NCBI GenBank assembly: GCA_013694695.1
Contig: JACDBX010000098.1
Span: 1 to 53,263 of the forward strand
Direction: 5' to 3'
Source: Gemmatimonadales bacterium
GTDB lineage: Bacteria > Gemmatimonadota > Gemmatimonadetes > Gemmatimonadales > GWC2-71-9
Length of the DNA stretch: 53,263 bases
Shown here: one piece after another, positions 31,257-47,251 of the stretch
Position numbering within the stretch: position 1 is the first letter of the stretch
How the letters are laid out: every line of letters begins with the position of its first letter
The notes under the pieces: generated by a model
The model's database searches: none
The model's input: only the letters and a program-made list of their open reading frames with translations
What the model was told of the DNA's origin: nothing
Translations under genes and position numbers: made by a program

Positions 31257-31262
31257 TATACT
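31257..31262 (+). promoter_or_regulatory. -10 element TATACT of a probable leaderless transcript
   Basis: TATACT ends five bases before the ATG at 31268, so transcription would begin at or next to the start codon. There is no Shine-Dalgarno sequence. One of six similar arrangements in this window. Confidence 0.55.
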
Positions 31263-31267
31263 CCATC

Positions 31268-31930
31268 ATGACCCTCCCGCTCCCTCTCTTCCCGCTCGAT
31301 GCCATCCTCTATCCGGGTACCCGGTCGGCGCTGCACATTTTCGAGCCCAGGTACCGCGCGATGCTGGCTGATATCCTCACGAGCGACCATGAGTTCGGGC
31401 TGCTGCCGCCCGGAGATGATGGGGGTGCGCCCGCCCCTGGTACCATCGGGTGCGTTGCCCGCGTGGAAGCTCACCAATCGCTCGCCGACGACCGATCGCT
31501 CATTTCCGTGGTGGGCCGCACCCGCTTCGTCCTCCAGGAAATGGTCGACACCGAGACACCGTACCTCCTCGGGACAGTAGCCGAGTTCGACGATGACCCC
31601 GATGAGCGCGACCTGCCGCCGGACGCCGAGGAGGCACTCCGGCGCCTGGGCGAACGTTGCCGCAACGCGCTCGCGGAACTCACTGACGCGGGCACCAGCG
31701 GCCCGTGGGCGGCCGACGGCGCGACTCTCACCTTCGAGGTGGCGTCTGTGATGCCATGGGACGCCGCCCAGGCGCGGCAACTCCTTGCCATGAGGTCGGC
31801 GGCCGGGCGCGCCGATGTGTTGCTACGCGTGCTCCCCCAACTCGTGCCCGAATTGGAGGGGCGCGCCGCGGTGCACAGCCGCGCGTCGACCAACGGCAAG
31901 GGTCCTCACACGCCCGACATCGCCTCGTGA
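31268..31930 (+). CDS. LON substrate-binding-domain protein
   Basis: 220 residues consisting of the Lon N-terminal (LAN/ASCH-like) domain only: LPLFPLDAILYPGTRSALHIFEPRYRAMLADI at the start is the family signature, here interrupted from any AAA or protease domain, which are absent. Stand-alone members are widespread and thought to bind unfolded or specific proteins. The start ATG is directly preceded by a -10-like TATACT with no ribosome binding site. The stop overlaps the GTG of the YgfZ-like gene. Confidence 0.88.
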   Translation: MTLPLPLFPLDAILYPGTRSALHIFEPRYRAMLADILTSDHEFGLLPPGDDGGAPAPGTIGCVARVEAHQSLADDRSLISVVGRTRFVLQEMVDTETPYLLGTVAEFDDDPDERDLPPDAEEALRRLGERCRNALAELTDAGTSGPWAADGATLTFEVASVMPWDAAQARQLLAMRSAAGRADVLLRVLPQLVPELEGRAAVHSRASTNGKGPHTPDIAS

Positions 31931-32811
31931 CCGCCGTGCCCGACTTCGTTCTCGGCGCGGACGAATTCAGGTTGCTCCGCCACGCGCTGCACGAAGCGTT
32001 GGTCCCCAGCGGCGTTTTCAGGGTGGAGGGCAGCGGCGCACTGCAATGCGTGCAGGGCGTGTACACCAACGACGTGCTCCGTCATGCCCCAAACGCCTTG
32101 ATGTGGGGGGGAGTGCTCACTCCGAAGGGAATGATCGTCTTCGACATGTGGGTGCTGCGCGATGGCGATGCGGCGTGGATGATCGTGCCCGGATCGGCGC
32201 ATGACACTGCGAGCGCGGCCTTCGCCCGCACCTTCCCGCCACGCATCGCGAAGGTCACGGATCGAACCGGCGACGTGGCCATCTCATGGATCCTTGGCCA
32301 CAACCCGCCCGCCGGCCCGGGAGTGATCGTGCCTGCGGGTCCGGCGCCGTTTTCGGCCCTCCGCATCCGAGAGGACGGGAACGACGACAGCGCCTTACCG
32401 CCGCCGGTCGCCCCCGCCGAGTGGGTGAACGCCGCGCGGCTGCTCGCCGGATGGCCTGCGCTTGGTCGCGAGATCGACGACCGCACCCTGCCGCAGGAAG
32501 TGCGTTTCGATGCGCTTGACGGGGTGCGTCACGACAAGGGGTGCTACACCGGGCAGGAAACCGTGGCGCGCCTGCACTTCCGCGGCCACCCCAACCGGAC
32601 GTTACGCGGCCTGCGATGGCACGACGCTCGGCCGACCGGGAGCGACGTGTTGATCGGGGAGAGGAATGTCGGCACCATCTCCACATGGGGACTGATCGAT
32701 GGCCGGGCACTCGGAATGGCAAAGCTTCGCCGCGAAGTGGACACCGGCGCAGATGTCGACGCCGGTGGCGCCACTGCAACGGTCGTGGAGTTGCCGTTCA
32801 ATGACGAGTGA
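31927..32811 (+). CDS. YgfZ/GcvT-like folate-binding protein
   Basis: 294 residues. The YgfZ signature KGCYTGQE (around residue 204) followed by a basic segment is intact, with the N-terminal GcvT-like fold around it (VQGVYTNDV, LTPKGMIVFDM). YgfZ uses tetrahydrofolate to help assemble or repair iron-sulfur clusters in selected enzymes such as MiaB. GTG 31927 overlaps the LON-domain gene stop (GTGA), so the two are cotranscribed. It ends at a strong hairpin. Confidence 0.92.
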   Translation: MTAVPDFVLGADEFRLLRHALHEALVPSGVFRVEGSGALQCVQGVYTNDVLRHAPNALMWGGVLTPKGMIVFDMWVLRDGDAAWMIVPGSAHDTASAAFARTFPPRIAKVTDRTGDVAISWILGHNPPAGPGVIVPAGPAPFSALRIREDGNDDSALPPPVAPAEWVNAARLLAGWPALGREIDDRTLPQEVRFDALDGVRHDKGCYTGQETVARLHFRGHPNRTLRGLRWHDARPTGSDVLIGERNVGTISTWGLIDGRALGMAKLRREVDTGADVDAGGATATVVELPFNDE

Positions 32812-32817
32812 ATACAC

Positions 32818-32847
32818 GACGCCCCGGGCATTACTGCCCGGGGCGTC
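32818..32847. terminator. Strong bidirectional hairpin terminator
   Basis: Perfect 13-bp stem GACGCCCCGGGCA / TGCCCGGGGCGTC with a TTAC loop, starting six bases after the YgfZ-like stop and 30 bases beyond the stop of the convergent repeat lipoprotein. No U run, but placement between convergent genes supports terminator function. Confidence 0.8.
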
Positions 32848-32877
32848 TGGGTGCATCAGTGTTGGTGACCTGTCAGG

Positions 32878-33081
32878 TCAGGGCTTCATCATGTTCATTG
32901 AGTCAGCCATGTGCATGCTGTCGGCCATGCGCATCGAATCTGCAACGCGCATCGAGTCCGCGAGGCGAATCGAATCAGCACTCGGCACGACCACCGTCAT
33001 GGAATCGACCATGTCGTCCGCCTTCTTGTCCCCGCACGCAGCAACTGCCACCAACGCCGCAACCATCATGACCTTCCGCAT
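32878..33081 (-). CDS. Small Met/Asp/Ser-repeat lipoprotein
   Basis: 67 residues. The signal peptide ends in the lipobox VAAC (Cys16), predicting a mature lipoprotein of only 52 residues. Residues 35-64 are five tandem hexapeptides of the form A-D-S-(M/I)-x-(M/V/L), preceded by looser DDM and DSM units. Mature methionine content is very high. A ribosome binding site GGGGAGAGG lies before ATG 33081, and a good promoter lies upstream. I recognise no family; similarity to alanine-zipper lipoproteins such as Lpp is worth considering because the repeat is predicted helical, but the six-residue period is not a heptad. Confidence 0.8.
   Translation of the reverse strand: MRKVMMVAALVAVAACGDKKADDMVDSMTVVVPSADSIRLADSMRVADSMRMADSMHMADSMNMMKP
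32890..32979 (-). repeat. Five imperfect 18-bp tandem repeats coding ADSM hexapeptides
   Basis: Five in-frame 18-base units inside the small lipoprotein gene encode A-D-S-(M/I)-x-(M/V/L). Codons vary between units (for example different Ser and Ala codons), so selection seems to keep the protein repeat rather than recent DNA slippage. Confidence 0.8.
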
Positions 33082-33159
33082 CGCCTCTCCCCTGTTGGAT
33101 GATTGGTCACCGAGGCCGGTACCGTGTATCGGCCGCTAACACTCGATGCACCGCCGTCC

Positions 33160-33187
33160 AAGTTAGGGCGTGGTACCGATCTGTCAA
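33160..33187 (-). promoter_or_regulatory. Promoter of the repeat lipoprotein gene
   Basis: On the minus strand TTGACA (33187-33182), a 16-base spacer, then TAACTT (33165-33160). The transcript would start near 33153, giving a leader of about 70 bases before the lipoprotein start at 33081. Confidence 0.6.
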
Positions 33188-33259
33188 GCACCTAACCTCT
33201 GCCCTGTCAATCGCTTCCGGCCCGTGACGACCCATTTCGTCGCCCCGACCCGCCCCGAT

Positions 33260-33263
33260 GGAG
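33260..33263 (+). promoter_or_regulatory. Ribosome binding site that fixes the AAA ATPase start
   Basis: GGAG ends six bases before ATG 33270. It overlaps the alternative upstream ATG at 33258, which has no such site. Confidence 0.6.
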
Positions 33264-33269
33264 AACGCC

Positions 33270-34736
33270 ATGTCTACCCGTGCGACCACCCTCGGAGCCC
33301 TCCGGAAGACCCCCTGGGCCCAGCCTCCACTTCTCGGCCGATCGGTCCGCGACGAGCTCCGGTCAAACCTGATCGCGCACCTGAGGGGGCCCAACGGCCG
33401 GTTTCCCGGGCTGGTCGGGTTCGATGACACCGTGTTGCCACAGGTCTACAACGCGATCCTGTCGCGGCAGCACTTCATCCTTCTCGGTACCCGGGGCCAG
33501 GCCAAGTCCCGCCTCCTGCGTTCCCTCGGAATCTTCCTCGACGAGGTTGTCCCGATGGTCGCCGGCAGCGAGCTTCGCGACGACCCATTCAATCCGATCT
33601 CCCGCGAGGCGATCGACCTCGTCGCCCGGCTCGGCGACGAGACCCCGATCGACTGGCTCGGCCGCAACGATCGGTACGTCGAGAAGCTCGCCACCCCCGA
33701 TGTCACCATCGCGGACATGATCGGAGATGTCGACCCGATCAAGGCAGCCCGTGGTGGCCATACCCTGGGCCACGAGCTGACGATGCATTTCGGGCTGCTC
33801 CCCCGTTCGAACCGGGGAATCTTCACCATCAACGAGCTCCCGGACCTGGCCGGCAAGATCCAGGTGGGCCTGTTCAACATCATGCAGGAAGGTGACGTGC
33901 AGATAAAGGGGTACCCGATCCGCCTGCCCCTCGACGTGATGCTCGCCTTCACCGCCAACCCCGAGGACTACACCGCCCGCGGAAAGATCATCACCCCACT
34001 CAAGGACCGCATCGGTTCCGAGATCCGCACGCACTACCCCAGGACTCTCGAGGAGGGAATGCGGATCACGGGGGATGAAGCGTGGACGACGCGGGCCGGA
34101 ACGGAGAGCGTCGACGTCCCTCCATTCATCGCGGAACTGGTGGAACAGGTTGCATTTCAGGCACGCGATGACAAGCGCGTGGACCGACGTTCCGGGGTGA
34201 GCCAGCGGCTACCCATCTCGCTCATGGAGCTGGTCGTCAGCAATGTCGAACGCCGGGCCATCGGAACCGGCGAGCAGGCACCGGTGGCACGCGTCAGTGA
34301 TGTCTACGCCGGCCTGCCGGCGATCACCGGCAAGATCGAGCTCGAGTACGAGGGCGAGCTGCAGGGTGGTGATGCGATTGCCCGCGAGATGATTCGCGCG
34401 GCGGCGGCGAGCGTCTTTGCGTCTCGAGCCGGCGACCTTGACGTGGAGGGCGTCGTGGAGTGGTTCGAACAGGGTAGCGCACTCAAGATCGGTGTCGACG
34501 ACAGCACTGAGGCGTGCTGGCAGGGGTTCGCGCTTGTGCCGGGCCTCATGGAGCTGGTCGAGGAGGCAGGAATGTCGGAGCGTGAGGATCACCCTCGCAC
34601 CGTGGCGGCGTGCGAACTCGTGCTGGAGGCGCTCGCCGCGACCAACCGAATCTCGCGTTCCGAGGACCAGGGATGGAGCCGGCCGAGACCCAAGCGCCGG
34701 CGCGGGCCGGCGCCCGGCGACACCTTTGGGCTATGA
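33270..34736 (+). CDS. MoxR/magnesium-chelatase-I-like AAA+ ATPase
   Basis: 488 residues. Walker A GTRGQAKS (73-80) and the Walker B position GIFTINEL (183-190), in which the usual Asp-Glu is Asn-Glu. The sequence around it ([28 protein letters not shown]) places it in the chelatase-subunit-I-like family that pairs with vWA proteins. It is a cytoplasmic chaperone-like ATPase, probably loading metal or remodelling a partner. The vWA gene at 36625 is the likely partner though two minus-strand genes lie between. The C-terminus is a basic, Pro-rich tail. The neutral Asn in Walker B is a family feature, not decay. Confidence 0.9.
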
Positions 34737-35342
34737 GCGCACTGCGCTGACGATCAGGTCGACCGCGCGCTCCATTCCCAGCCACTCAGTGTTCACCACG
34801 AGGTGGTAGTTGTGGGGGTCGTGCCAGTCGCGATCGTACCACTGGCGATGGTATCGGGCGCGGTGTGAATCGTTCTCGCGCACCCGGCGTGCGGCGTCCT
34901 CGCGACTGATCCCGTCGCGCTGCGCAATGACCCCGGCACGATGGTCCTGCGATGCCACGACCTTCACGTGCAGCGCATCGTCGCGGCGGCCGATCACCGC
35001 GACCGCCGCGCGACCGACCATGACAACGTTCGTCGCCGCACAGGAGTCGGCGACAACCTGCTCAGTGATTCGGACGAGCCGCGCCTCCTCCGCCTCGGGT
35101 GCCTCGATGTCCATCGGTGCGAGCACCTCCGGTGTGGCCGCCACCAGCGCACGGGCCAGGCGTTCGACAAACGTCGGACCCCGCTCCTCGCGCTGCGCCA
35201 CGTCGGCCGGGGTGAGACCGGCGCGGCGCGCCACCTCGGCGACCACTTCGTTGTCGATCAACTGCCAGCCGAGTCTTTCCGCTACCAGACCGGCCAGCAA
35301 CGAACCCTGTGCACCAAACTCCCGCGAGATCGTGATCAGCAT
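34731..35342 (-). CDS. Cytidylate-kinase-like family protein
   Basis: 203 residues of the cytidylate-kinase-like (AAA_26) family. [22 protein letters not shown] is the N-terminal nucleotide-loop equivalent (split here: [10 protein letters not shown] then [12 protein letters not shown]), and it lacks the GKS/T of a true P loop, as members of this family do. Other segments: [27 protein letters not shown]. True CMP kinase activity is unproven for the family. ATG 35342 overlaps the MFS stop (TGATG). Its stop overlaps the end of the convergent ATPase gene by six bases (stop region 34731-34736). Confidence 0.85.
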
Positions 35343-36598
35343 CAGGTCGTCCCCCCGTTCCAGAGCCGGCGACGCAGGATGGCGGTTGCGATGAGGCAGG
35401 TGGCGCCATTGATGGCGATGGCCCACGGTGCCCCGGCATGCTCGGCGATCCATCCGGCCTGGAACGCGCCGATTGGCGTCAAGCCGAGCACCACGAATGA
35501 ATACACCGCCATCACCCGCCCCCGGAGTTCGGCGGGTGCCGCGAGCTGGAGCGACGTCGCCGTGGCGATCCCCTGGGCCGCCATCGCCGAACCGGCAACG
35601 CCGAGGAGCAGAAGCGCGAGCGTCATCTCGCGGGAAAGCGCGAACAGGATCACCGCCACGCCGAGCACCGTCGACGCCAGCACGGCACCGCGCGCCCTCG
35701 AGATCCGCCGGTCGATCGCGCCCATGCCGATCGCACCGATCGCAGCCCCGACTCCCACCGCCGAAGTGAGAGCGCCGTAACCCGAAGCGCCTGCGCCGAG
35801 AACGTCGCGAGCGAAGACGGGCAGGATCGGGATGAAGCTTGCGGCAAATACCGACAGGACCACCATCTGGAGCGTGAGCGCGCCGAGGACCGGGCGCGAT
35901 CGGATGAAACGGATCCCGGTGAACACCGAGGGTCGCAGCCGGTTCATCGCCGCCGCGAATGGCTGGCGGATCCGGTACAGCCCGATGAGGACGGCCACGT
36001 AGCTGAGCGAGTTGACGGCAAACGCGGCGCCCGCGCCCGCGATGGCCACGACGACCCCTGCGATCGCGGGACCGACAACCCGACCGAGGTTGTACACGGT
36101 GGAATTGATCGCTGCGGCCGACACGAGATCCTCCGGCGGCACCAGTTCGACCACCATCGCCTGGCGCGCCGGCACCTCGAACGCCGTGGCGAGGCCGAAC
36201 AGGAGCGCCAACCCCCACACCCATTCGACGGTGATGAGCCCTGCCAGCGTCAGCCCTGCGAGGACGGCGGCCTCGATCATCATCACCGACTGCAACAGCA
36301 TGATGAACCGCCGCTTGTCGACCCGATCAGCGACCACACCGCCGTACAGCGTGAAGACGAGGATGGGGATCGTCGACATCGTGGTGGTGAGGCCCACGGC
36401 AAACGCCGAACCGGTGAGCTCGAGGACCAGCCATCCCTGGGCGATGATCTGCATCCACGTGCCGACCAGCGAGATCGCCTGCCCCGTGAGGAAACGGCGG
36501 AAGTCCGCATGCCGGAGCGCGCGAAAAGGACCGGTCGCCATTCCGGCGCCAAGGTCGTTCAGCGCCTGTCGGGTCCGCACGATCGGCAGCAGGGACAT
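35342..36598 (-). CDS. Major facilitator superfamily transporter (MFS_3/EntS-like)
   Basis: 418 residues with twelve predicted membrane helices. The ADRVDKRR loop between helices 2 and 3 and the EVPARQAMVVELVP segment are typical of the MFS_3 branch that includes enterobactin and macrolide exporters, so drug or siderophore efflux is likely but not proven. ATG 36598 is preferred to TTG 36607. On the minus strand TACCTT (36611-36606) ends seven bases before the ATG and there is no ribosome binding site, so the mRNA may be leaderless. The divergent vWA gene starts 26 bases away. Confidence 0.88.
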   Translation of the reverse strand: MSLLPIVRTRQALNDLGAGMATGPFRALRHADFRRFLTGQAISLVGTWMQIIAQGWLVLELTGSAFAVGLTTTMSTIPILVFTLYGGVVADRVDKRRFIMLLQSVMMIEAAVLAGLTLAGLITVEWVWGLALLFGLATAFEVPARQAMVVELVPPEDLVSAAAINSTVYNLGRVVGPAIAGVVVAIAGAGAAFAVNSLSYVAVLIGLYRIRQPFAAAMNRLRPSVFTGIRFIRSRPVLGALTLQMVVLSVFAASFIPILPVFARDVLGAGASGYGALTSAVGVGAAIGAIGMGAIDRRISRARGAVLASTVLGVAVILFALSREMTLALLLLGVAGSAMAAQGIATATSLQLAAPAELRGRVMAVYSFVVLGLTPIGAFQAGWIAEHAGAPWAIAINGATCLIATAILRRRLWNGGTT

Positions 36599-36605
36599 GA
36601 CGCTC

Positions 36606-36618
36606 AAGGTAGTAGCTT
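36606..36618. promoter_or_regulatory. Divergent -10 pair for the MFS and vWA genes
   Basis: Plus strand: TAGCTT (36613-36618) ends six bases before the vWA ATG at 36625. Minus strand: TACCTT (36611-36606) ends seven bases before the MFS ATG at 36598. With only 26 bases between the start codons there is no room for leaders, so both mRNAs are predicted leaderless. Confidence 0.5.
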
Positions 36619-36624
36619 CCGGGT

Positions 36625-37905
36625 ATGCGCTACACCACGTACGCCCGCTATTTGGAAGGCCTCGCCGGTCAGGTCAACCTCCAGTCGCTTCTCGACCAGC
36701 TGGGTGACTTCCTCCTGCAGTCGGGATTTGACGGCGTGCCGTGGTGGGGCGACCCGGGCGACGCCGACAACGGGCGCACGGTGGAGGATCTGCGCGAAGC
36801 GATCCTGCGGGCACTGATGGAATCTGGGCAGCTCACGCCGGAGATGCTGCAGCTTCTCAGCGAAGGGTCCACCGGCGACGAAGAACGCGATGCCGCAGTG
36901 ACCCGGGACCTCGCCGAGCTCCTCGACCGGATTGTCGGCAGGCTGGTGGACGAGGGCTACTTGTCGATCCCCGCCAGCCAGTCCGCCGGCGGTCCAGGCA
37001 CGATTCGCGATGCCGGCGGAACCGCCCGCGACGCCGCGCGTACCGTCCGGTTCGACGTGTCCGAGAAGGGCGCAGATTTCCTCGGTTATCGTTCGCTCAA
37101 GGCACTGCTCGGCGCACTCGGGCGGTCGGCCGTGGGCGCGCACGAGACCAGCGACCTCTCCACCGGGATCGAGGCGGAAGCAGCCAGCCGCCCGTTCGAG
37201 TTCGGTGACGTCCTCAATCTCGATGTCGCGGCGACGCTCACGAATGCCATCTCGCGTCACGGCCTCGCCTTCCCGCTCGAGCTCGATCATCGCGACTTGA
37301 TGGTGACGCAATCGGCGTATCGTTCGTCGGCTGCCACCGTGCTGATGCTCGACTGCTCTCACTCGATGATCCTCTACGGCGAGGACCGCTTCACACCGGC
37401 AAAGCGCGTGGCGCTCGCGCTCACTCACCTGATCCGCACTCATTTCCCCGGCGATTCGATCCGGGTGGTCCTCTTTCATGATGGCGCGCAGGAGATTCCG
37501 CTTGGCGCGCTCGCCAATGTGCAGGTCGGTCCGTACCACACGAACACCGCCGGCGGGCTGGCGCTGGCACGCCGCATTCTCGCGTCGCAGCGCCAGGAGA
37601 TGCAACAGATCATCATGATCACGGACGGCAAGCCGACAGCGCTGACGATGCCGGACGGTCGCACCTACATCAACTCGGGAGGCCCCGACCCGGCGATCCT
37701 CAAGGCCACATACCGCGAGGTCTCGGCGTGCCGGCGTAGTGGCATCATGATCAACACCTTCATGCTGGCGCGCGAGGCGCAGCTCGTGGAGTTCGTGAAG
37801 CAGGTGTCACGGATCTGCCGTGGCAAGGCCTACTTCGCGAACCCGGTCACTCTCGGCGAGTTCCTGCTGATGGATTTCCTGAAGGGGAAGACAAGCCGGG
37901 GGTGA
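36625..37905 (+). CDS. vWA-domain protein, partner of the AAA+ ATPase
   Basis: 426 residues, cytoplasmic. The C-terminal von Willebrand A domain has a full metal-ion-dependent adhesion site: D243-C-S245-H-S247, a downstream Thr in HTNTAGG and Asp in MITDGKPT. The N-terminal 230 residues are helical and charged. Such proteins team with MoxR/chelatase-type ATPases, where the MIDAS metal engages the ATPase or substrate. The start has no ribosome binding site and sits six bases after a TAGCTT -10-like element. A strong hairpin follows the stop. Confidence 0.9.
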   Translation: MRYTTYARYLEGLAGQVNLQSLLDQLGDFLLQSGFDGVPWWGDPGDADNGRTVEDLREAILRALMESGQLTPEMLQLLSEGSTGDEERDAAVTRDLAELLDRIVGRLVDEGYLSIPASQSAGGPGTIRDAGGTARDAARTVRFDVSEKGADFLGYRSLKALLGALGRSAVGAHETSDLSTGIEAEAASRPFEFGDVLNLDVAATLTNAISRHGLAFPLELDHRDLMVTQSAYRSSAATVLMLDCSHSMILYGEDRFTPAKRVALALTHLIRTHFPGDSIRVVLFHDGAQEIPLGALANVQVGPYHTNTAGGLALARRILASQRQEMQQIIMITDGKPTALTMPDGRTYINSGGPDPAILKATYREVSACRRSGIMINTFMLAREAQLVEFVKQVSRICRGKAYFANPVTLGEFLLMDFLKGKTSRG

Positions 37906-37907
37906 AC

Positions 37908-37946
37908 GTCAACGGCCCCGCGACATTCCGCCGCGGGGCCGTTGAC
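37908..37946. terminator. Perfect 15-bp hairpin terminator
   Basis: GTCAACGGCCCCGCG (37908-37922) and its exact complement at 37932-37946, with a nine-base loop. It lies between the convergent vWA gene and M48 protease gene and can end both. Confidence 0.85.
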
Positions 37947-37962
37947 AATGGCGCAGGCCGCC

Positions 37963-39396
37963 CTATCGGTAACCGACCGTCTTCACTCGACGGCCAGCGG
38001 GAAGCGTGACGTTTCCGTCGACACCGTTGAGGATCGCGAGCGCCTGTGTCTCGATTGCGCCACCGCTCTGCTGCGCGAGGGTCGCGATCGATGTCGCCCG
38101 CTGCAGCGTGACCACCCGAAGCGCCCGCGCCCGCTGGAAGACCTGGTTGGATGCCGTCGGGCGGAACGACCGCAGCACCGATGACACCGTGCCGCCATGC
38201 GAGCCCCAGCCCTGCGCAGTGGCATAACCAACGAACTGGAAGACCGTCCCGGCGTGCTGCACCATGAGGACTTGTCCCCGGATCTGCTGGCCCTGTTGCG
38301 GCGTCGCGGTGAACTCGGCGATGACCCCGGGCGACCCGCCGAGCGAGATGTTCTGCGCGCTGCCCATCTGGATTCCCTGCTGCTGCTGGAATGCCTGCAT
38401 CGCTGCCTGGGGCGACGACTGCTGCACGCCGCTCAACTGGATCTGGGCCTGGCCGTTCGGCTCGCCGAGGACGACGGCCGCTTTCTGGTTCACTGTCAGC
38501 CAGCTGGATGGCACGTCGAACTGAAAACGCAGCGCGGGATGCAGGAACCGGCCGTTCTCGAAATATCCCTCCGCCGGGTCGGCACCATAGAGCATGCCAT
38601 TGATCCGGGTCAGGAACTCGTCACGATCAGTCATCAGGCCGGCGTAGCTGCTCACCGTGTCTGCCCATGCCTGCGTCTTCGCGACACGATTTCCCGGGTC
38701 GGGATGGGTGGCGAGGAACGACGGTCCGGAAGCGCTGCCGCTTGCCGCGCCGATCCGCTCCAGCGTCATGAAGGTCTTCGGGATTTCCCGCACATCGTAG
38801 CGCTGGGTGAGCGCGTACCGGTGCCCGATCTGGTCGGCCTGGGTCTCCTGGTCACGCCCGTACTTGAGCGTGAACAGTGTTGCCACCGCACCGGCGCCCT
38901 GGGCCACGGCGTCGCTCTTGGAGATGATTGCGGCGGCCAGGACACCGAGCTGCGCACCCAGGCCGGTGCTCATCTGCGCAACCGAGTGCTTCGCAGTCAC
39001 GTGGGCTATCTCGTGGCCGAGCACGCCGGCCAGCTCCGCCTCGGAGTTCATCACCGCGAGTATCCCGCGGGTCACGAAGATGAAACCACCCGGTGCGGCA
39101 AAGGCGTTCACCATCGGATCGTCAACGACATGGAATTCCCACGGCAGTTGCGGACGCTCCGAGGCGCGCGCCATCTTCATGCCGATCGTGCTGACGTACG
39201 ACTGGAGCGCCGGGTCGGCGACGAAACCCATCGACTGCTGCACCGCCGGCACCTGGCTTCGGCCCATTTCGATTTCCTGTGACTCCGACACCAGCGACAA
39301 CTGACTCTGGCCCGTCACCGGGTTCGTGGCACATCCCATCACGCCCGCAGAACCCATCAGGACGCTCGCTGCAATAACCGACATGACTCCGCGCAT
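37963..39396 (-). CDS. M48-family metallopeptidase lipoprotein (BepA/YcaL-like)
   Basis: 477 residues from ATG 39396. Lipobox VMGC places the lipidated Cys at residue 22. The zinc site is HEIAHVTAKH with the third ligand Glu in ETQADQIG, as in periplasmic M48 proteases (BepA, LoiP, YcaL) that degrade misassembled outer-membrane proteins. The C-terminal 200 residues form an extra domain rich in Gln; BepA has TPR repeats there, but I cannot recognise TPRs. GGGAGG about ten bases upstream is the likely ribosome binding site, and TATGAT (39427-39422, minus) the -10. Confidence 0.9.
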   Translation of the reverse strand: MRGVMSVIAASVLMGSAGVMGCATNPVTGQSQLSLVSESQEIEMGRSQVPAVQQSMGFVADPALQSYVSTIGMKMARASERPQLPWEFHVVDDPMVNAFAAPGGFIFVTRGILAVMNSEAELAGVLGHEIAHVTAKHSVAQMSTGLGAQLGVLAAAIISKSDAVAQGAGAVATLFTLKYGRDQETQADQIGHRYALTQRYDVREIPKTFMTLERIGAASGSASGPSFLATHPDPGNRVAKTQAWADTVSSYAGLMTDRDEFLTRINGMLYGADPAEGYFENGRFLHPALRFQFDVPSSWLTVNQKAAVVLGEPNGQAQIQLSGVQQSSPQAAMQAFQQQQGIQMGSAQNISLGGSPGVIAEFTATPQQGQQIRGQVLMVQHAGTVFQFVGYATAQGWGSHGGTVSSVLRSFRPTASNQVFQRARALRVVTLQRATSIATLAQQSGGAIETQALAILNGVDGNVTLPAGRRVKTVGYR

Positions 39397-39420: not shown

Positions 39421-39427
39421 TATCATA
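39421..39427. promoter_or_regulatory. Two-way -10 element between M48 protease and ThrE-like genes
   Basis: Plus strand TATCAT (39421-39426) ends six bases before GTG 39433; the minus strand of the same bases reads TATGAT (39427-39422). One near-palindromic GTATCATAC could therefore serve both genes, leaderless on the plus side and with a leader of about 20 bases on the minus side. Confidence 0.45.
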
Positions 39428-39432: not shown

Positions 39433-40743
39433 GTGAACAAGACGCCTCCCGAACCCGAGCCCCGCACATCGTGGGCAGGATGGACCCCCACCGGGGGGAT
39501 GGCGATCCCACCTGCGCTGCGCCAGGGCGACGATCGGATCGGCTTCGTCCTCCAGCTGGGTCGCTCGCTTCATGTCTCCGGATACGACGCGCACCGGCTC
39601 GAAGAAGCGATGGAGATGGCGAGCGACAAGCTCGGCCTGCGGGGCCAGTTCTTCTCGACGCCGACATCAATCATGTCGTCGTTCGGCGTGCAGGACGACC
39701 AGCAGACGTTCCTCATCCGGGTGCGACCGGGCGAGACCAATCTCGGCAAGCTGGCCCAGGTCGACGCCGTCACCCACGATGTTCTCGAGGGTCGCAAGAC
39801 ACCATCACAGGGCCTCAATGCGCTCGCCCGCATCGAGGCCGCACCGCCGCCCTACGGACCCGTGCTGACCACCCTTGCGTTCGGACTCTCCTCCGGCACG
39901 GTGGCACAATTCCTTGGCGGCGCCCGGAATGAGGTGATCGCCGGATTCACCATCGGGATGGTGATCGGCCTGCTATCGCTGCTCGCCGCGCGACTACCTG
40001 CGCTCGGTCGGGTGTTCGCGCCAGTCGCTGCCGCGATTGCGGCTGCGGCTGCCGCGGGAATCGCGGTCAGCGGCATGCCGATCTCGGTCTTTACCGCCAC
40101 GCTTGCCGGTGTCATCGTGCTCATCCCCGGTCTCACGCTCACCACCGCGCTGACCGAGCTCTCCAGCCAGCACCTGGCATCCGGAACGGCGCGATTCATG
40201 GGCGCGGTGGTGACCCTGCTCGGGATCGCGTTCGGGATAGCGGTGGGCGGCAAGGTGATGTCACTGCTGGTGGGCCCCGCGCCTCAACTGGCCGCCGTCG
40301 TGCCACTGCCGGGTTGGAGCGTCCCGATCGCGCTTGTGATCCTCCCGCTCGCGTTCATGGTCCTGCTCAGGGCCGAATGGCGCGATGCTCCGTGGATCAT
40401 GATGGCGTGCCTGCTGGCTTTCTTCGGCACCCGTCTCGGGGCGCGCGTGCTGGGTGCCGAGCTCGGGGCGTTCGTGGGCGCCTTCGCGACCGCACTTGGC
40501 AGCAACTGGTATGCGCGCATCACCAACCGGCCAGCACCGATCACGCTCGTTCCCGGCCTCCTCCTGATGGTGCCGGGAAGCATCGGGATCCGTTCACTCG
40601 ACGCCCTGGTCGCGAGCAGGGGCGCCGACGATGTGATCGGCGGTGTCGACAGCGCCTTCAAGATGGTGCTGATCGCGATATCGCTGGTCTCGGGAATCCT
40701 GATCGCGAACGCCGTCTCACCACGGCGCCGCCTGCTCTCGTAG
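39433..40743 (+). CDS. ThrE-family threonine/serine exporter-like protein
   Basis: 436 residues: an N-terminal soluble part (about 1-130, FVLQLGRSLHVSGYDAHRLEEAM), then about ten membrane helices. Both halves of the ThrE family (the ThrP-type domain and the smaller C-terminal domain) are fused, as in the corynebacterial exporter. It would export threonine or serine using proton motive force. GTG 39433 has no ribosome binding site. It ends six bases before the convergent propeller gene. Confidence 0.88.
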   Translation: MNKTPPEPEPRTSWAGWTPTGGMAIPPALRQGDDRIGFVLQLGRSLHVSGYDAHRLEEAMEMASDKLGLRGQFFSTPTSIMSSFGVQDDQQTFLIRVRPGETNLGKLAQVDAVTHDVLEGRKTPSQGLNALARIEAAPPPYGPVLTTLAFGLSSGTVAQFLGGARNEVIAGFTIGMVIGLLSLLAARLPALGRVFAPVAAAIAAAAAAGIAVSGMPISVFTATLAGVIVLIPGLTLTTALTELSSQHLASGTARFMGAVVTLLGIAFGIAVGGKVMSLLVGPAPQLAAVVPLPGWSVPIALVILPLAFMVLLRAEWRDAPWIMMACLLAFFGTRLGARVLGAELGAFVGAFATALGSNWYARITNRPAPITLVPGLLLMVPGSIGIRSLDALVASRGADDVIGGVDSAFKMVLIAISLVSGILIANAVSPRRRLLS

Positions 40744-40749
40744 GATCGG

Positions 40750-42474
40750 TCAGCGCATCCCAGCCAGGATCGCCGCCAATTCTCCCACCACGACCACGTC
40801 ATCCGCAGAGTTGCCACCGATGGCGAGGAGGAGCACCGGCAACCCGGATTCAACTGCCACCCATTGCTCACCTTCGCGCCGCCACGCAGTGCCGCCCTCA
40901 CCGATCACGTAGATGTATCCCTCGATCTCTCGCACCGCCCTGAGCGCACCGGGAATGGGCGGGGTCACGGTGCGCCACTGCTCACCCACGCGATGCAGGA
41001 CTACGCCCTCATCGCCCACCAGCCAGAGCTCGGTCGATGACCGCACCAAAACGCCGCGTAGCGTGGTGCTGACAGCGGTGGACACCTGCTGCCAACGCCC
41101 GCTTCGCAGCCGCAGCGCGGTGCCGTCGTCCCCGACCGCCCAGATATCACCGCCGCGCATACCATGCACGTGCCGAAGTGTGGCCGACGTCGGCGTGCTC
41201 GCTCGATCCCACGCACTGCCGTTCCATGACAGCACCGTTCCACCGGCGCCCACGATGACCTGTCGGTTGTCACTCCCCCACCACACACTCCGGAGCAGGC
41301 CGTCGAATGGCGATGCCTCCCGCCGCCATCCGCCACCGATGGCGCGGAGGATGGTGCCGCTGTCGCCAACCACCAAACGTGACGCTGCCAGCGGCCCCGC
41401 GATGCCATAGAGCGTGTTGGAGGTCGGCAGCGCCGCGCGCTGCCACCTGCCAGCGACGCGCTCGAACGCGAGCCCGCCCGAACCCACGGCCAACGCCGTA
41501 CCAGTCGCCGGGACGTGCACGTCGAACAGGAGCGCTCCGCTCCCGATCCCCTCCCAGCCGGACGAGTCGCTGAGCACGGTGCCATACCATCCTGCCGCAT
41601 GCCGCCTACCGCCGCCGCTGCTCACTGCACGAAGGTTTTCGAGCGCGCCGCGTACCGGCACCAGCGTCCAGTTGACGCCGTCGCCGGAAATGACCCGTCC
41701 GCCATCGCCGACGGCGACGAACCGCCCGGGCCCGTCACTCGTCACGGCAAAGAGGTTGACCGACGTGGGCGAAGGCACGACCCGCCAGCTTCCGCCGTCG
41801 CGCACCACGATCGTTCCTGCCGTACCCACGGCGACCACTCGTCCCGATCCGTCTCCCGCAACATCAAACAATCCATTCGTCGTCGGCGACGTGACTTGCG
41901 CCCATCGTCCGGCATCACAGCATTCGAGGATCACGCCGCTCTGGCCGACCGCCACCAGCGATTGCGCCGAGCTCCCCCAGGTGCTCCACAACTCGGCGGG
42001 CAATGGCACCGGTTGTTGTTGCCACACCGAGCCGTCGTAATACAGGATCGTGCCACCGGTGCCCACCGCCCACGCGTTCGTTGCATCGAGACCCCACACG
42101 TCAAGCAGTATCTCCGCCGACGGCACGGGCTCGTTCACCCATCCGCTGGCGAGCCGCCGGAGAAGCGTGCCACCGCTGCCACTGGCAAAGAGCGGCGTTG
42201 CGCCCGGACCCCAGATTCCGGTGAGGGTCTCCCTCGTTGGGGTCGTTTCGATGATCGCGCTTGATCCATCCCACTGACCGATGACCCCTTCCTGGCCAGC
42301 CACCCACAGCCGGCCGTCGGGAGCCGTCCAAGCGCCCAGAAACGTCGCGTTGGTCAGGCCATACCGTACCGGCCGGAGCGCGGTCACCGGGCGCGACGGC
42401 GCATCGACGGTAACCGGCGATTCATGGCAGGCGAGCATGGTAGCCAGACCCAACGTCAGCGCGACCTTCTTCAT
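40750..42474 (-). CDS. Lipoprotein with 13 YCF48-like beta-propeller repeats
   Basis: 574 residues. Signal peptide with lipobox MLAC (Cys16). From about residue 50 to the end run 13 repeats of about 40 residues, each with a G-x-x-G-T/V-(I/V/L)-L turn followed by a Trp-containing strand, as in the YCF48/BNR-type propellers. Thirteen blades could form a single large or, more likely, two propellers. No catalytic motif. The start ATG 42474 sits six bases after TAGCTT on the minus strand. Function unknown; some relatives aid photosystem or secreted-complex assembly. Confidence 0.85.
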   Translation of the reverse strand: MKKVALTLGLATMLACHESPVTVDAPSRPVTALRPVRYGLTNATFLGAWTAPDGRLWVAGQEGVIGQWDGSSAIIETTPTRETLTGIWGPGATPLFASGSGGTLLRRLASGWVNEPVPSAEILLDVWGLDATNAWAVGTGGTILYYDGSVWQQQPVPLPAELWSTWGSSAQSLVAVGQSGVILECCDAGRWAQVTSPTTNGLFDVAGDGSGRVVAVGTAGTIVVRDGGSWRVVPSPTSVNLFAVTSDGPGRFVAVGDGGRVISGDGVNWTLVPVRGALENLRAVSSGGGRRHAAGWYGTVLSDSSGWEGIGSGALLFDVHVPATGTALAVGSGGLAFERVAGRWQRAALPTSNTLYGIAGPLAASRLVVGDSGTILRAIGGGWRREASPFDGLLRSVWWGSDNRQVIVGAGGTVLSWNGSAWDRASTPTSATLRHVHGMRGGDIWAVGDDGTALRLRSGRWQQVSTAVSTTLRGVLVRSSTELWLVGDEGVVLHRVGEQWRTVTPPIPGALRAVREIEGYIYVIGEGGTAWRREGEQWVAVESGLPVLLLAIGGNSADDVVVVGELAAILAGMR

Positions 42475-42480
42475 TCAGGA

Positions 42481-42486
42481 AAGCTA
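42481..42486 (-). promoter_or_regulatory. -10 element TAGCTT of a probable leaderless transcript
   Basis: On the minus strand TAGCTT (42486-42481) ends six bases before ATG 42474, with no Shine-Dalgarno sequence. It is the same hexamer and spacing as at the vWA gene. Confidence 0.5.
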
Positions 42487-43647
42487 TCCCGTTTGGTCGA
42501 CGCTTTCTCCAAGCGCAATGATGTGATCACGCTGGCGACGGTAGAGCGTTGCGCCGAATCCTCCCGCCACCAACGCCACGATTCCGCCCGCGAGGATCGC
42601 GGATCGGTTCGTCACTGACACGATCGCGACCCAAGCCAGTCCGCTGAGCAACGCTGGCTTCGCGACCGCCACCAACCCATGCTCCGCCTGGCGACCCCGC
42701 CATTCAGCCAGCAGGTAGCCCAGCGAAGCCAGGGCGGCCACGTGTTCGAGCCATCGCAGGATGCCGACTCGTGCGTCACCACCTCCGGCGACCGAGAGCG
42801 ATCCCGGATACAACGCAAGAAGGATCAGGTAGAGCAGGACGAGCGGCACAATCACCCGAACCACCTGCGGTTCGAGGCGTCGGTCCCGGAGCACCGCCTT
42901 ACGCCAGGCCCATTGCCCCAGGCCGGCCGCGCCGACAACAACAACGAGTCCGACACCCACCATGAAGGGGTTGGTCCGGAGGGCGGGGACGGCACCGATC
43001 GCAAACCATGTCACCGCGGCAAGCACGACGTTGCGCCCCATCGCGGTGGTCGCAGCCGAGGGGACTGTTCGCGCCACCGCTGCCAGCGTGAGTGCACCCG
43101 CAGCGACGACGGGTAGCGACAGCCAGGCCCTCGCAGGAGACCCGGCAGCGCCGAGGCCGTCGAGCCACAGGAGGGGGAGAAGGAGGTAAGTCACGCCCAT
43201 CAGCGGCAGGTCGAGCATGAGTCGACCGACGAGGCGTCGCCCCGCCCCGAACCGACGATCGACAAACGTCGAGATCATGGCCCCCAGCAATGCCCCAAGT
43301 GCGTTGGCGGCCACGTCGGTAACCGTGCTGTACCGCGGGAGCAGGAAGAGCTGGAGACTCTCTATCAGCAGGCTCGCGCCGCCGGCCACGAGCACGACCG
43401 TGACCAGCCCCGATCGCATCGTCCGGTGCAACGCCAGCCCGATCGGGACGAAGAGCGCCACGTTGAGCAGGATGTCGGCGATCCACCCGCCGTCAAGCAC
43501 CAGGAGGTGAACCCGAGGGGGGTGGGGTACCGCAAAACGGAAGGGCGCGAGGGTGATGACCCCGACCACCACGGCGAGGTATCCCACAAGGAGATAACCC
43601 AGGCGGCGGCCGGTTCCGAGGGCAGGACTTGCGGGGGTAGATGTCAT
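42484..43647 (-). CDS. VanZ-like polytopic membrane protein
   Basis: 387 residues, about ten membrane helices. The N-terminal half matches the VanZ fold (ITLAPFRF, then ADILLNVALFVPIGLAL and YSTVTDVAANALGALLG, containing the conserved Asn and Asp-Asn-like positions). VanZ proteins contribute to low-level teicoplanin resistance and may act on envelope lipids; the role here is unknown. On the minus strand TATGAT ends exactly six bases before ATG 43647, inside a palindrome. Confidence 0.85.
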   Translation of the reverse strand: MTSTPASPALGTGRRLGYLLVGYLAVVVGVITLAPFRFAVPHPPRVHLLVLDGGWIADILLNVALFVPIGLALHRTMRSGLVTVVLVAGGASLLIESLQLFLLPRYSTVTDVAANALGALLGAMISTFVDRRFGAGRRLVGRLMLDLPLMGVTYLLLPLLWLDGLGAAGSPARAWLSLPVVAAGALTLAAVARTVPSAATTAMGRNVVLAAVTWFAIGAVPALRTNPFMVGVGLVVVVGAAGLGQWAWRKAVLRDRRLEPQVVRVIVPLVLLYLILLALYPGSLSVAGGGDARVGILRWLEHVAALASLGYLLAEWRGRQAEHGLVAVAKPALLSGLAWVAIVSVTNRSAILAGGIVALVAGGFGATLYRRQRDHIIALGESVDQTG

Positions 43648-43670
43648 TGTGATATCATATTGAAATCACA
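43648..43670. promoter_or_regulatory. 23-bp palindrome, candidate operator of VanZ and SPFH genes
   Basis: TGTGATATCA, three centre bases, TGAAATCACA: nine of ten arm positions are symmetric. It fills almost the whole 43-bp divergent gap and contains the vanZ -10 TATGAT (43659-43654, minus). It could be bound by the Arc-like protein encoded at 44562 or by a CRP/FNR-type regulator. Confidence 0.55.
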
Positions 43671-43690
43671 CTTCGAACGGAGCTGGAACG

Positions 43691-44557
43691 ATGATTCGCG
43701 AGATCGAGCGCAAGGGTGTCCCCGGAATCCTGGCTGTGCTCCTGCTCTTCCTCCTGACCGCTGGAGCGTTCGCCTCTGCGGTGCGTGCCGCGTGGTACGA
43801 CAACGCGGTGACCGGGATCGGGTCGGCGGTGGCAGGAGCTGTCTCGTTGATCCTCTGGTTCGGGCTCACCATGGTGCAGCCCAACCAGGCACGGGTGCTC
43901 ACCCTCTTTGGCCGGTACGTAGGCTCGCTCAAGGTTCCCGGGCTCTGGTGGGTGAATCCGCTCTACGCCAAGCGGCCGATTTCGCTCCGGGTGCACAACT
44001 TCGAGACTGCCAAGCTCAAGGTGAACGACAAGCAGTCGAACCCGATCGAGATCGGTGCGATTGTGGTCTGGCAGGTGGTCGACTCCGCCGAGGCGATGTT
44101 CGAGGTCGAGAGTTACGAGGACTATGTACGAGTGCAGAGTGAGTCCGCTGTCCGGACACTCGCCACGTCCTATCCGTACGACGCGCATTCCGAGGGGGAA
44201 ACCTCGCTGAGCCACAATGCCAACGAGATTGCCGATAAGCTCGCTGCGGAGGTGCAGGCTCGCCTGTCCCGGGCAGGGATGCGCGTGATCGAGGCGCGTA
44301 TCGCCCATCTCGCCTATGCACCCGAGATCGCGAACGCCATGCTCCGCCGGCAGCAGGCGAGCGCGATCATCGCCGCCCGTGTGCAGATTGTGGAGGGGGC
44401 GGTGTCGATGGTCGACATGGCGCTGCGATCGATCGAACAGAAGGGCATGGTTCAGCTCGACGAGGAGCGGAAGGCCGCCATGGTGTCGAACCTCCTCGTG
44501 ACGCTGTGCGCCGAGCAACCGATGCAACCGGTGGTCAACACCGGGTCGCTGTACTGA
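43691..44557 (+). CDS. SPFH/Band 7 (slipin-like) membrane protein
   Basis: 288 residues: two N-terminal hydrophobic segments (about 10-30 and 40-60) anchor it, followed by an SPFH domain with [26 protein letters not shown] and [13 protein letters not shown], then a helical region ([32 protein letters not shown], here quoted in two halves [10 protein letters not shown] and [12 protein letters not shown]). Such proteins form membrane-microdomain rings. GGAG lies eight bases before ATG 43691. The four-base gap to the tiny regulator gene suggests cotranslation. Confidence 0.9.
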
Positions 44558-44561
44558 GCCG

Positions 44562-44738
44562 ATGGGTGATCGCAAGTCGTTCCTCGTCCGGCTCGATCCC
44601 GCGCTGCATGCGGCCTTGCAGCGATGGGCGGCGGACGACCTGCGATCGCTCAATGCGCAGGTCGAGTACCTGCTCCGCTGCGCCGTGCGGGACGCCGGCC
44701 GACTCCGCGACGAATCATCCGATGATCGGCGGGTGTAG
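44562..44738 (+). CDS. Arc-like ribbon-helix-helix protein
   Basis: 58 residues. [19 protein letters not shown] shows the N-terminal beta strand and first helix of ribbon-helix-helix DNA-binding domains, and [20 protein letters not shown] the second helix. It starts four bases after the SPFH stop. This Arc-like/SPFH pairing recurs in several phyla. It is the leading candidate to bind the palindrome at 43648-43670 and autoregulate the operon. It is too short for most gene finders. Confidence 0.8.
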
Positions 44739-44751
44739 TGAGTCCAGTGAT

Positions 44752-45441
44752 TCAGCGCGCGCGGGCGGCCACCAGCGACGCGACATCCGCCGCGCTGTCC
44801 AGGATGGCATCGTGCGGATGATGCGCCAACTCTTCCCGCGAGTGCCCCCCGGTGCACACGCCAATCACCATCCCGCATCGCGCCACCGTCCCCTCCTGCA
44901 GGTCGACCGGCGTGTCGCCCACCTTGGCAACGTCGCCGGGATCCACCCCTCCGAGCTGCTCGCGAAGCCGCTCGATCATGTCGGGCCAGGGGCGACCACG
45001 CTGAACCTCATCGCTCGCCACCGCGGCGTCCACCGGGGAGTCGGGCCCCGCCCAACCCAGTCGCTCGAGCAGGACGTCGAGGACCTGACGGGACAACCCG
45101 CTGCCGAGCGCGATGCGAACATTGGCCGCGCGGAGCTCTCCGAACATCGCTGAAATCCCGGCGATGGGCTGGACGCAGGGCGCCCGCGCGATGTGTTCGG
45201 TGAGCTGGGCGGTGAACGCGGCCATGATCTCCGGAATCCGCGGGAAGAGGTCCTCGCGCCCGTGCCCCTCGAGCAGGACCCGGATCGCCATCGGCTTCGC
45301 AAGGCCCAATACGCCGGCAATGGCAGCCGGCTTGAGATCGGGGCCGACGGCGGCGATCGCATCGTGCAGCGCCGTTCGCACGACACCGCGATCGTCCCAG
45401 GTCGTCCCTGCCACGTCGAACACAACCAGCCGAATTGCCAT
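44752..45441 (-). CDS. Phosphonatase-like HAD hydrolase
   Basis: 229 residues. Motif I is FDVAGTTWDD: the second acidic residue of the usual DxD is Ala, as in phosphonoacetaldehyde hydrolase (PhnX), which uses a Schiff-base lysine elsewhere. Motif III-IV region VAKVGDTPVDLQEG is intact. The HAD family here is the phosphonatase-like group, whose substrates are mostly unknown. GGGAG before ATG 45441 is the ribosome binding site. A phosphonate transporter or PhnW is not seen. Confidence 0.85.
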   Translation of the reverse strand: MAIRLVVFDVAGTTWDDRGVVRTALHDAIAAVGPDLKPAAIAGVLGLAKPMAIRVLLEGHGREDLFPRIPEIMAAFTAQLTEHIARAPCVQPIAGISAMFGELRAANVRIALGSGLSRQVLDVLLERLGWAGPDSPVDAAVASDEVQRGRPWPDMIERLREQLGGVDPGDVAKVGDTPVDLQEGTVARCGMVIGVCTGGHSREELAHHPHDAILDSAADVASLVAARAR

Positions 45442-45638
45442 CGGTGCTCCCGTTGCCCGGCGCCGCCGCCGCCCATACGCGTGCGAGGCCGTGGCGCCCA
45501 ATCGTTCTACAGGGTAAGGACGGAGGGGATTCTGCGATCGACACCCATCCGGTAGCTTCTCGTCCCCGAGCTCTGCAAGTTCCTGACCGACGGGGGGCGG
45601 CACCATCGCCCCCTCCCATTTCCACGGAGGAAGTCCGT

Positions 45639-46109
45639 ATGTCGTACCGCCGCACGCTGATCGTTGCCGCACTGACCGTCGCCACCGTCGCCGGTTGTTC
45701 CAAGAATGACTCACCGGACGACGGTGCCCCCGATTCCGTCACGATCGTGACGCCCGACATTTCCGCCACCGCCCGCGTGGCCGCCATGGAACTCGGCCGT
45801 GCCGTCGACTCGATGAAGAACATCCTCGGTGGCGTGACCTCGAACTTCGGGGCCAACGATACGCTTTACCTGTCGGTGCGGAGCGAGAATACCGCCCCCG
45901 GATCGACGGTTGCCGTTCGGTGGATGAACGCAGCGGGGGAGACGATCGACTCGACCGCGCAACAGATCGCCGCTGGCGCCGCCTCTGCCGCGGCATCAAC
46001 CGAGTTCCACATCAAGAAGGCCACTGCATGGCCCGAGGGTAAGTACCAAGTGGAGGTGTTCCTCGACAACGTGTCACAGGGGATCAAGGAGTTCGAGGTC
46101 AAGCACTAG
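45639..46109 (+). CDS. Lipoprotein of unknown function
   Basis: 156 residues. Lipobox VAGC (lipidated Cys20) followed by Ser-Lys, then an acidic, Thr-rich linker to about residue 50 and a beta-rich domain (about 65-155, with EGKYQVEVFLDN at the end) resembling an Ig-like or FixH-type sandwich. No catalytic motif. A strong ribosome binding site GGAGG (45626-45630) lies eight bases before ATG 45639. The gene is alone, ended by a hairpin. Confidence 0.8.
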   Translation: MSYRRTLIVAALTVATVAGCSKNDSPDDGAPDSVTIVTPDISATARVAAMELGRAVDSMKNILGGVTSNFGANDTLYLSVRSENTAPGSTVAVRWMNAAGETIDSTAQQIAAGAASAAASTEFHIKKATAWPEGKYQVEVFLDNVSQGIKEFEVKH

Positions 46110-46140
46110 ACATCCCCGCCACCCCGCGAACGTGGCAACA

Positions 46141-46170
46141 GCCCCCGCAACTGGAAACGGTTGCGGGGGC
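46141..46170. terminator. Hairpin terminator
   Basis: GCCCCCGCAAC (46141-46151) pairs perfectly with GTTGCGGGGGC (46160-46170), loop of eight bases. It lies between the convergent lipoprotein and ada genes. Confidence 0.8.
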
Positions 46171-46177
46171 ACTGTCG

Positions 46178-47239
46178 TTAACGTGCCTGTCCCCCCCGCA
46201 GCGCTCCCTCGAGCTCCAGCAACCGAACCTTGCGCCAGAGCCCACCGCCGTAGCCCCCCAGCTTCCCACCGGTGTTCACCACGCGGTGACAGGGGATCAC
46301 GATCGCGATCCGGTTCCGACCGTTGGCGCTGCCAACCGCACGGACGGCGAGCGGTGATCCGATGGTCCGCGCAATGTCGGCGTACGAGCAGGTGACGCCG
46401 TGCGGGATCGCGCGCAGCGCGGTCCACACCGCAACTTCGAACGGGCTCCCACGAACAGCCAGAGGCACCCGGAATTCGGTGAGGGATCCGGCGAAGTACC
46501 GCTTCAACTCGTCGAGGAGCGAATCGAGGTGCGGGTGCGTCCCCGGCACCACCGGGCCCCGGAACCATCTCTGCAGGCGGGGTGCCTGTTGTTCCAGGCG
46601 CTCGTGGTCGCCGAATTCAAGGAGGCAGATTCCCTGGTCAACCGCGCCCGCCACGATCGGCCCGACTGGCGATTCCCATGTCGTGGTGATCACGGCTTCG
46701 CCGTCGCGTGCGCGCCCGGGCGCGTCGCCCACGACGCGCGCGAATGCATCCCGGAATCCGCTGTGAGACTCGTATCCTGACTCCACGATGACCCGGTCAA
46801 GCGCCTGCCCGGATGCCAGCCGTCGCTGCGCGCCGGCGACTCGGCGGGCCCGTGCCCACGCCTGGAACGTGGAGCCGTGGAGCCGGCGCGCGTGCCGACG
46901 TACCACCACCGGATCGAACCCGCGGTTTCGCAGATCGTCGTCAGAGAGCTTGCCGCCATGCTGATCAAGTGCGCCGACGAGAGCTGCCCACCAGTCCGGC
47001 TGGCGGTCGGATTCCGGCCGGCACCGTCGGCAGGCACGAAACCCGGCGTGCCGGGCCGCGTCCAGCGTCGCGAAGAACTCGACATTCTCGTCGCGGGCGC
47101 GGCGTGATGGGCACACCGGGCGACAGGCCACCCCGGTGGTGCGGACCGCAAAGACGAACAAGCCATCCCACGCGGGGTCGCGGTGCGCAACGGCGCGGAG
47201 CAGTGTCCGGCGTGACGGAAGACTGGCGGCGTGTGTCAT
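46178..47239 (-). CDS. ada: Ada: bifunctional DNA-repair methyltransferase and regulator
   Basis: 353 residues with all three Ada parts: N-terminal zinc domain with Cys39, Cys43, Cys70 and Cys73 (methyl phosphotriester acceptor), AraC-type helix-turn-helix (about 85-180, DRVIVESGYESHSGFRDAFARVVG), and C-terminal O6-methylguanine methyltransferase with VIPCHRVV. Methylation of the zinc Cys turns Ada into an activator of the adaptive response. On the minus strand, TAGAAT ends six bases before ATG 47239 with no ribosome binding site. An alkA gene is not adjacent. Confidence 0.95.
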   Translation of the reverse strand: MTHAASLPSRRTLLRAVAHRDPAWDGLFVFAVRTTGVACRPVCPSRRARDENVEFFATLDAARHAGFRACRRCRPESDRQPDWWAALVGALDQHGGKLSDDDLRNRGFDPVVVRRHARRLHGSTFQAWARARRVAGAQRRLASGQALDRVIVESGYESHSGFRDAFARVVGDAPGRARDGEAVITTTWESPVGPIVAGAVDQGICLLEFGDHERLEQQAPRLQRWFRGPVVPGTHPHLDSLLDELKRYFAGSLTEFRVPLAVRGSPFEVAVWTALRAIPHGVTCSYADIARTIGSPLAVRAVGSANGRNRIAIVIPCHRVVNTGGKLGGYGGGLWRKVRLLELEGALRGGQAR

Positions 47240-47245
47240 GCAGCG

Positions 47246-47251
47246 ATTCTA
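47246..47251 (-). promoter_or_regulatory. -10 element TAGAAT of a probable leaderless ada transcript
   Basis: On the minus strand TAGAAT (47251-47246, five of six bases of TATAAT) ends exactly six bases before the ada ATG (47239). No Shine-Dalgarno sequence is present. Confidence 0.6.

Follow-up and report, generated by a model that had tools for sequence, protein, structure and literature searches.

How are genes expressed that have no Shine-Dalgarno (SD) sequence and carry a promoter-like hexamer almost touching their start codon? The question arises from a 53,263-nucleotide stretch of DNA from a soil-type Gemmatimonadales bacterium (GenBank assembly GCA_013694695.1, contig JACDBX010000098.1, positions 1 to 53,263; here called the window), part of a metagenome-assembled genome of 2.80 Mb in 195 contigs that belongs to the phylum Gemmatimonadota. 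An earlier note on this DNA had pointed to TANNNT hexamers that end five or six bases before the start codons of six genes, and seven bases before that of a seventh, and had taken them for the -10 elements of leaderless mRNAs. All seven hexamers are present in the sequence at those distances (the gap, counted as the bases between hexamer and start codon). As judged from sequence, it is very probable that sigma-70-type promoters abut genes in this organism and that transcription begins at the first base of the start codon, producing leaderless mRNA.

A TANNNT peak before start codons

Across the whole genome, TANNNT-N6-ATG occurs 185 times, compared with 112.6 expected from gaps 9–45 (P = 2.7e-10), and TANNTT-N6-ATG occurs 60 times, compared with 19.6 expected; both expectations were derived from other gaps in a picked sample of source-genome contigs plus the window (749 kb). 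The enrichment at this offset that the earlier note had proposed to look for genome-wide is thus present. Since the peak lies at gap 6, the transcript is predicted to begin with the start codon itself, and the constant gap fits such a start, as had been claimed.

The signal is concentrated on genes that lead transcription units. Genes were called with a codon log-odds caller blind to the motif (coding density 0.91) and were counted as unit-leading if the upstream gene was divergent or lay on the same strand at a distance of at least 40 bp, and as operon-internal if that distance was less than 20 bp. The source-genome sample, counted without the window, contains 295 unit-leading genes, of which 31 carry TANNNT at gap 5–7 (5.8 expected from gaps 12–49) and 19 carry it exactly at gap 6 (1.95 expected), and a caller-free count on the raw sequence gives 74 at gap 6 versus 31; as the contigs were picked from a list of TANNNT matches, the gap-6 counts of both the gene-based and the raw-sequence sample are raised, and the unbiased evidence consists of the whole-genome counts and of stretches from relatives chosen without regard to the motif. 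Operon-internal genes of the same sample carry the hexamer at gap 5–7 in 6 of 265 cases, three of which are explained by upstream stop codons. Among all eight operon-internal matches in the source genome, the TAG or TAA stop of the upstream gene makes the TANNNT about 12 bp before the start in four, a trap for motif scans.

The peak is kept when starts are set by the longest open reading frame. It disappears when each gene is read from its next start downstream (1 of 292 at gap 6) or when in-frame codons are taken at random (0 of 295). Raw-sequence counts before GTG show no peak. TANNNT is the top over-represented pattern of the NN...N form at gaps 5–7 in the source genome and in relatives G009 and G031, and is not so in Cupriavidus; the control patterns TNNNAT and ATNNNA are not raised in the source genome.

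Four relatives were sampled. At gap 5–7, TANNNT precedes 15 of 191 unit-leading genes in G009, of the same genus (3.4 expected), 18 of 217 in G031, of another family (3.8 expected), and 8 of 224 in G067, from another family of the class (3.7 expected, P = 0.036); the figure for G062, from the other class of the phylum, is 0 of 52 (2.2 expected). The raw sequence of G009 also shows the gap-6 peak (35 versus 20, P = 0.001). As a positive control, 200 kb of a Deinococcus deserti plasmid gave 9 of 119 (2.8 expected, P = 0.003); sequence of D. gobiensis enters none of the counts. No peak was found in 200 kb of Cupriavidus metallidurans (1 of 129, 2.5 expected), where the raw-sequence peak is also absent, and 200 kb of Escherichia coli gave 5 of 130 (8.9 expected), none of them at gap 6. 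A smaller E. coli sample (50 kb) had given 5 of 28 (1.4 expected, none at gap 6), which the 200-kb result marks as small-sample noise. Depending on the threshold, the excess of leading genes over control windows is 7–10% in the source sample (biased upward), 3–8% in G009, 6–8% in G031 and 0–2% in G067.

Is the hexamer part of a promoter? We pooled 77 genes from the source genome (5 window genes included), G009, G031 and G067, 72 of which lie outside the window. In 15 of these genes the hexamer is preceded by a TTG at a spacing of 16 or 17 bp (about 1.4 expected); a -35 element is seen in the set as a whole, and not at any one of the seven window sites. The fifth base is T in 49 of the 77 hexamers; in the source genome outside the window the count is 22 of 31, versus 32 of 81 for TANNNT elsewhere upstream. 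Hexamer genes also avoid SD sequences, which precede 2 of 31 of them in the source genome, versus 99 of 264 other genes, and 0 of 15 in G009, versus 58 of 176. SD initiation should be available as well, as the 16S rRNAs of G031 and G025 carry an intact anti-SD at the 3′ end (GGATCACCTCCTT); the 16S gene is truncated in the source genome, and two of the four relatives searched gave one. The four genes that had been contrasted with the hexamer genes, at 33270, 45639, 51312 and 52232, do have ribosome-binding sites, with GGAG or GGAGG 4–8 bases before each start, and the proposed coexistence of SD-led and leaderless modes agrees with these observations.

We therefore favor a scheme in which RNA polymerase would read TANNNT, mostly as TAnnTT, ending six bases before ATG, accompanied at some genes by a TTG -35 element at 16–17 bp; at ada the -35 place is taken by a conserved element of the CGGTGG type, which is probably bound by an activator. 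The 5′-terminal AUG would then be bound directly by the ribosome together with initiator tRNA. The start of transcription on the AUG, the absence of a leader and this translation step are predictions; what the sequences themselves show is where the hexamer lies, its enrichment, the spacing of the -35 element, the avoidance of SD sequences and the recurrence in relatives.

The seven sites and their orthologues

In orthologues, TANNNT was counted at gap 5–7 before the nearest start, with the source genome excluded and repeated upstream sequences counted once. Orthologues were taken among the matches listed, up to 30 loci per gene (up to 110 for vWA; the first 8 of 30 for VanZ), and those excluded numbered 1 for vWA, 7 for ThrE, 0 for LON, 2 for MFS, 1 for ada and 1 for VanZ.

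The ada and LON sites are the strongest. The ada gene (46178–47239), whose product has Zn-binding, helix-turn-helix and methyltransferase domains by Pfam, is preceded by TAGAAT at gap 6 (47246..47251, minus strand), and the hexamer recurs in 18 of 28 orthologues, or 22 of 28 if any start within 20 codons is allowed (controls 0–3). A CGGTGG element (47272..47277, minus strand) lies 20 bp upstream of the -10, at about the -35 position. In a set of 23 sequences, the window and 22 TANNNT-bearing orthologues, 22 have CGG(T/A)(G/A/T)(G/A) ending 19–22 bp upstream of the hexamer, the pattern having been chosen after these sequences were seen; the element is a candidate Ada operator. The LON-domain gene (31268–31930; PF02190, LON substrate-binding domain) has TATACT at gap 5 (31257..31262, plus strand), and 9 of 13 orthologues carry the hexamer (controls 0–3).

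Support for the MFS and ThrE sites is fair. TACCTT precedes the MFS gene (35342–36598; PF05977, MFS_3) at gap 7 (36606..36611, minus strand), with the hexamer in 8 of 27 orthologues (controls 0–1). The ThrE gene (PF06738), with a GTG start at 39433, has TATCAT at gap 6 (39421..39426, plus strand), and its orthologues carry the hexamer in 4 of 16 cases at the nearest start (controls 0–1); allowing every start within 20 codons raises this to 6 of 16 (controls 0–3).

The vWA gene (36625–37905; PF13519, VWA_2) has TAGCTT at gap 6 (36613..36618, plus strand). All six same-genus loci (L004–L009) have TANNNT at gap 5–8, two of them at gap 5–7, and the site is fairly supported within the genus only. 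Many vWA relatives have an SD-like sequence in place of the hexamer, so that orthologues appear to differ in mode. One vWA clade (L036–L040, L042, L045 and L046) has a long conserved upstream stretch (cattgcgggaaagctcg ... gatatt ... gggtag) with no TANNNT at the usual gap. The MFS and vWA genes are divergent, and the 26 bp between their ATGs (36598–36625) contain both -10 hexamers; either -35 region would fall within the opposite gene. Both hexamers are present at gap 5–8 in 8 of 84 divergent loci.

The VanZ-like gene (42484–43647; PF04892) has TATGAT at gap 6 (43654..43659, minus strand), which stays a candidate site. The propeller lipoprotein gene (40750–42474), whose product has no match among Pfam or NCBIfam profiles, starts 9 bp past VanZ on the same strand; its TAGCTT at gap 6 (42481..42486, minus strand) is weak as a site because the TAG is the VanZ stop codon and the TA therefore comes free. 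Given that the propeller gene adjoins VanZ in this way, and that a TauE gene lies on the same strand 54 bp upstream of ada, the statement in the earlier note that all six genes lead transcription units holds clearly for some of them and not for all.

Weighing the alternatives

Several observations weigh against promoters that abut start codons. For G031 the raw-sequence signal at gap 6 is weak (29 versus 21.6, P = 0.07), as it is for D. deserti, the positive control (20 versus 14.4, P = 0.09), and G067 shows no excess (18 versus 21.2). SD avoidance in G031 is not significant (1 of 18 versus 35 of 199), the ATNNNA control is somewhat raised in G009 (6 versus 3.2 expected), and a TTGACA-like hexamer at 16–18 bp is found at 0 of 7 window sites. 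Among vWA orthologues the hexamer is barely more frequent than the TNNNAT control (10 of 96 versus 8 of 96), so that the case for this site depends on the loci of the same genus together with the genome-wide peak. Among VanZ orthologues it is not conserved, with 1 of 6 equalled by one control pattern (1 of 6). Finally, all gene starts come from a home-made caller, which set the ThrE start at 39499 and not at 39433.

Could the hexamers be chance, a loose AT pattern before starts that caught attention through the way sites were selected? The sites had been chosen by eye, no enrichment of the window over the rest of the genome is seen (5 of 25 versus 31 of 295 unit-leading genes, Fisher P = 0.18) and the propeller site overlaps a stop codon. 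Chance would not, however, place a gap-6 peak in the whole genome and in two relatives not picked for the motif while leaving it out of two control species, nor would it remove the peak at shifted codons or set TTG at the right spacing. We regard chance as highly unlikely, refuted for the set and open for the propeller and VanZ sites taken singly. Even less probable is that the promoters are real but make mRNAs with short leaders, translation starting at codons further downstream than those assigned. Such an arrangement would suit the uncertain ThrE start, for which the caller preferred the later codon, and the four same-genus ThrE loci in which TATCAT lies 9–10 bases before ATG, predicting a leader of 3–4 bases; against it, the peak vanishes at the next downstream start, and the alignments of several LON orthologues, and of the ada orthologues from the same genus, begin at residue 1.

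The least probable of the three alternatives is that the motif acts in translation: a short sequence ahead of the start codon would aid ribosomes on SD-less mRNAs with leaders, as in Bacteroidota. Flavobacterium, which lacks SD sequences, keeps its anti-SD, and Kozak-like sequences are reported there in the accessible text of PMC6847099; the 16S tail is likewise intact in two relatives of the source organism. However, it is the -10 form TANNNT that tops the patterns in the source genome, G009 and G031, with TNNNAT and ATNNNA flat in the source genome, and the motif is rarer at operon-internal genes and is accompanied by TTG at 16–17 bp. Leaderless transcription from abutting promoters, supported by the gap-6 peak in the genome and in two relatives, by the TTG -35 element and by the lack of SD sequences, remains the reading that we adopt, with the propeller gene as its weak case.

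Known leaderless systems and distribution within the phylum

How does this compare with leaderless genes elsewhere? In the class of TA-led genes, TANNNT lies about 12 bp before the start, SD sequences are lacking, SD-led genes stand beside them and high-GC groups have them frequently, according to the main text of Zheng et al. (2011; PMC3160421). The source genome resembles this class in having TANNNT above background about 12 bp before the start, counted from the first T (185 versus 112.6), in lacking SD sequences at those genes (2 of 31, as in G009 with 0 of 15; not significant in G031) and in bearing the signal on unit-leading genes (31 of 295 versus 6 of 265 internal), the propeller gene of the window excepted. 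Gemmatimonadetes are not among the groups named in that main text; one row there, "Other Bacteria" (8 of 20 genomes), pools its groups and may include a member of the phylum. PMC10783764, in the part of its text available, assigns an anti-SD group to Gemmatimonadetes; leaderless genes are not named for this phylum, and five further phyla are mentioned in general terms.

The earlier note had described the form as known in Deinococcus and actinobacteria; the D. deserti plasmid does show the peak, and the source organism belongs to neither group. In Deinococcus-Thermus, a -10 element adjoining open reading frames drives leaderless transcription experimentally, and a -35 element at 17 bp enhances it without being required, according to the accessible text of Zhong et al. 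(2025; PMC12340547). The motif and its place are the same in the source genome. The fifth position differs, with T in 49 of 77 genes of the Gemmatimonadota pool versus 0 of 9 in the D. deserti sample.

Bacteroidota belong to the FCB group. NCBI taxonomy places Gemmatimonadota within that group too. The -7 box of flavobacterial Bacteroidota is given as TAnnTTTG in the accessible text of PMC9723704 and shares its TAnnTT core with the box of the source genome. Equating the two boxes was considered and dropped, because the box of the source genome has no TTTG end (positions 7–8 are C or T, then C). In Flavobacterium psychrophilum, leaderless transcripts are put at 5.5% of mapped mRNAs, as far as the accessible account goes.

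We found no report on leaderless genes in Gemmatimonadota and no transcription-start map for the phylum, supplements and most subscription papers being outside the scope of the search. Among 101 genomes, TANNTT-N6-ATG was above a backwards control, not matched in composition, in 58 of the 61 that belong to the order; of the 40 from the rest of the phylum, 14 exceeded it. By these counts a known mode, leaderless genes, would here extend to a phylum for which no report was found, with a boundary at about the order. Should the mode be confirmed, the -10 motif ought to guide the annotation of start codons throughout the order. The boundary within the phylum would then be a place to study how this way of initiating translation spreads, or disappears, in bacteria that keep an intact 16S anti-SD.

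Which sigma factor might read TAnnTT? A match at or above the curated RpoD_Cterm cut-off is present in 4 of 61 genomes, each of them a member of the phylum's other class. Among the five best sigma matches read within the class, four have 285–289 amino acids and the fifth has 335 from the first possible start, or 286 from the first ATG; these proteins are without the long N-terminal part present in the other class (554 amino acids). The short sigma protein is a candidate for reading TAnnTT. One possibility, which we hold tentatively and at somewhat less than even odds, joins these strands: leaderless expression from TAnnTT would be an order-level trait served by a short sigma factor that lacks the extended N-terminal region of RpoD, orthologues would switch between SD-led and leaderless expression, and ada would retain an old damage-inducible leaderless promoter in which an operator replaces the -35 element.

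The best RpoD_Cterm match in the source genome scores 219 bits, versus 251 in G004 and 237 in G009, both of the same genus, perhaps because the assembly is incomplete. The window itself contains a sigma-70 family gene upstream of the seven sites, at 28884–29774, encoding a protein of 296 amino acids with Pfam regions 1.2 to 4 and an RpoD_Cterm score of 198 bits (cut-off 354).

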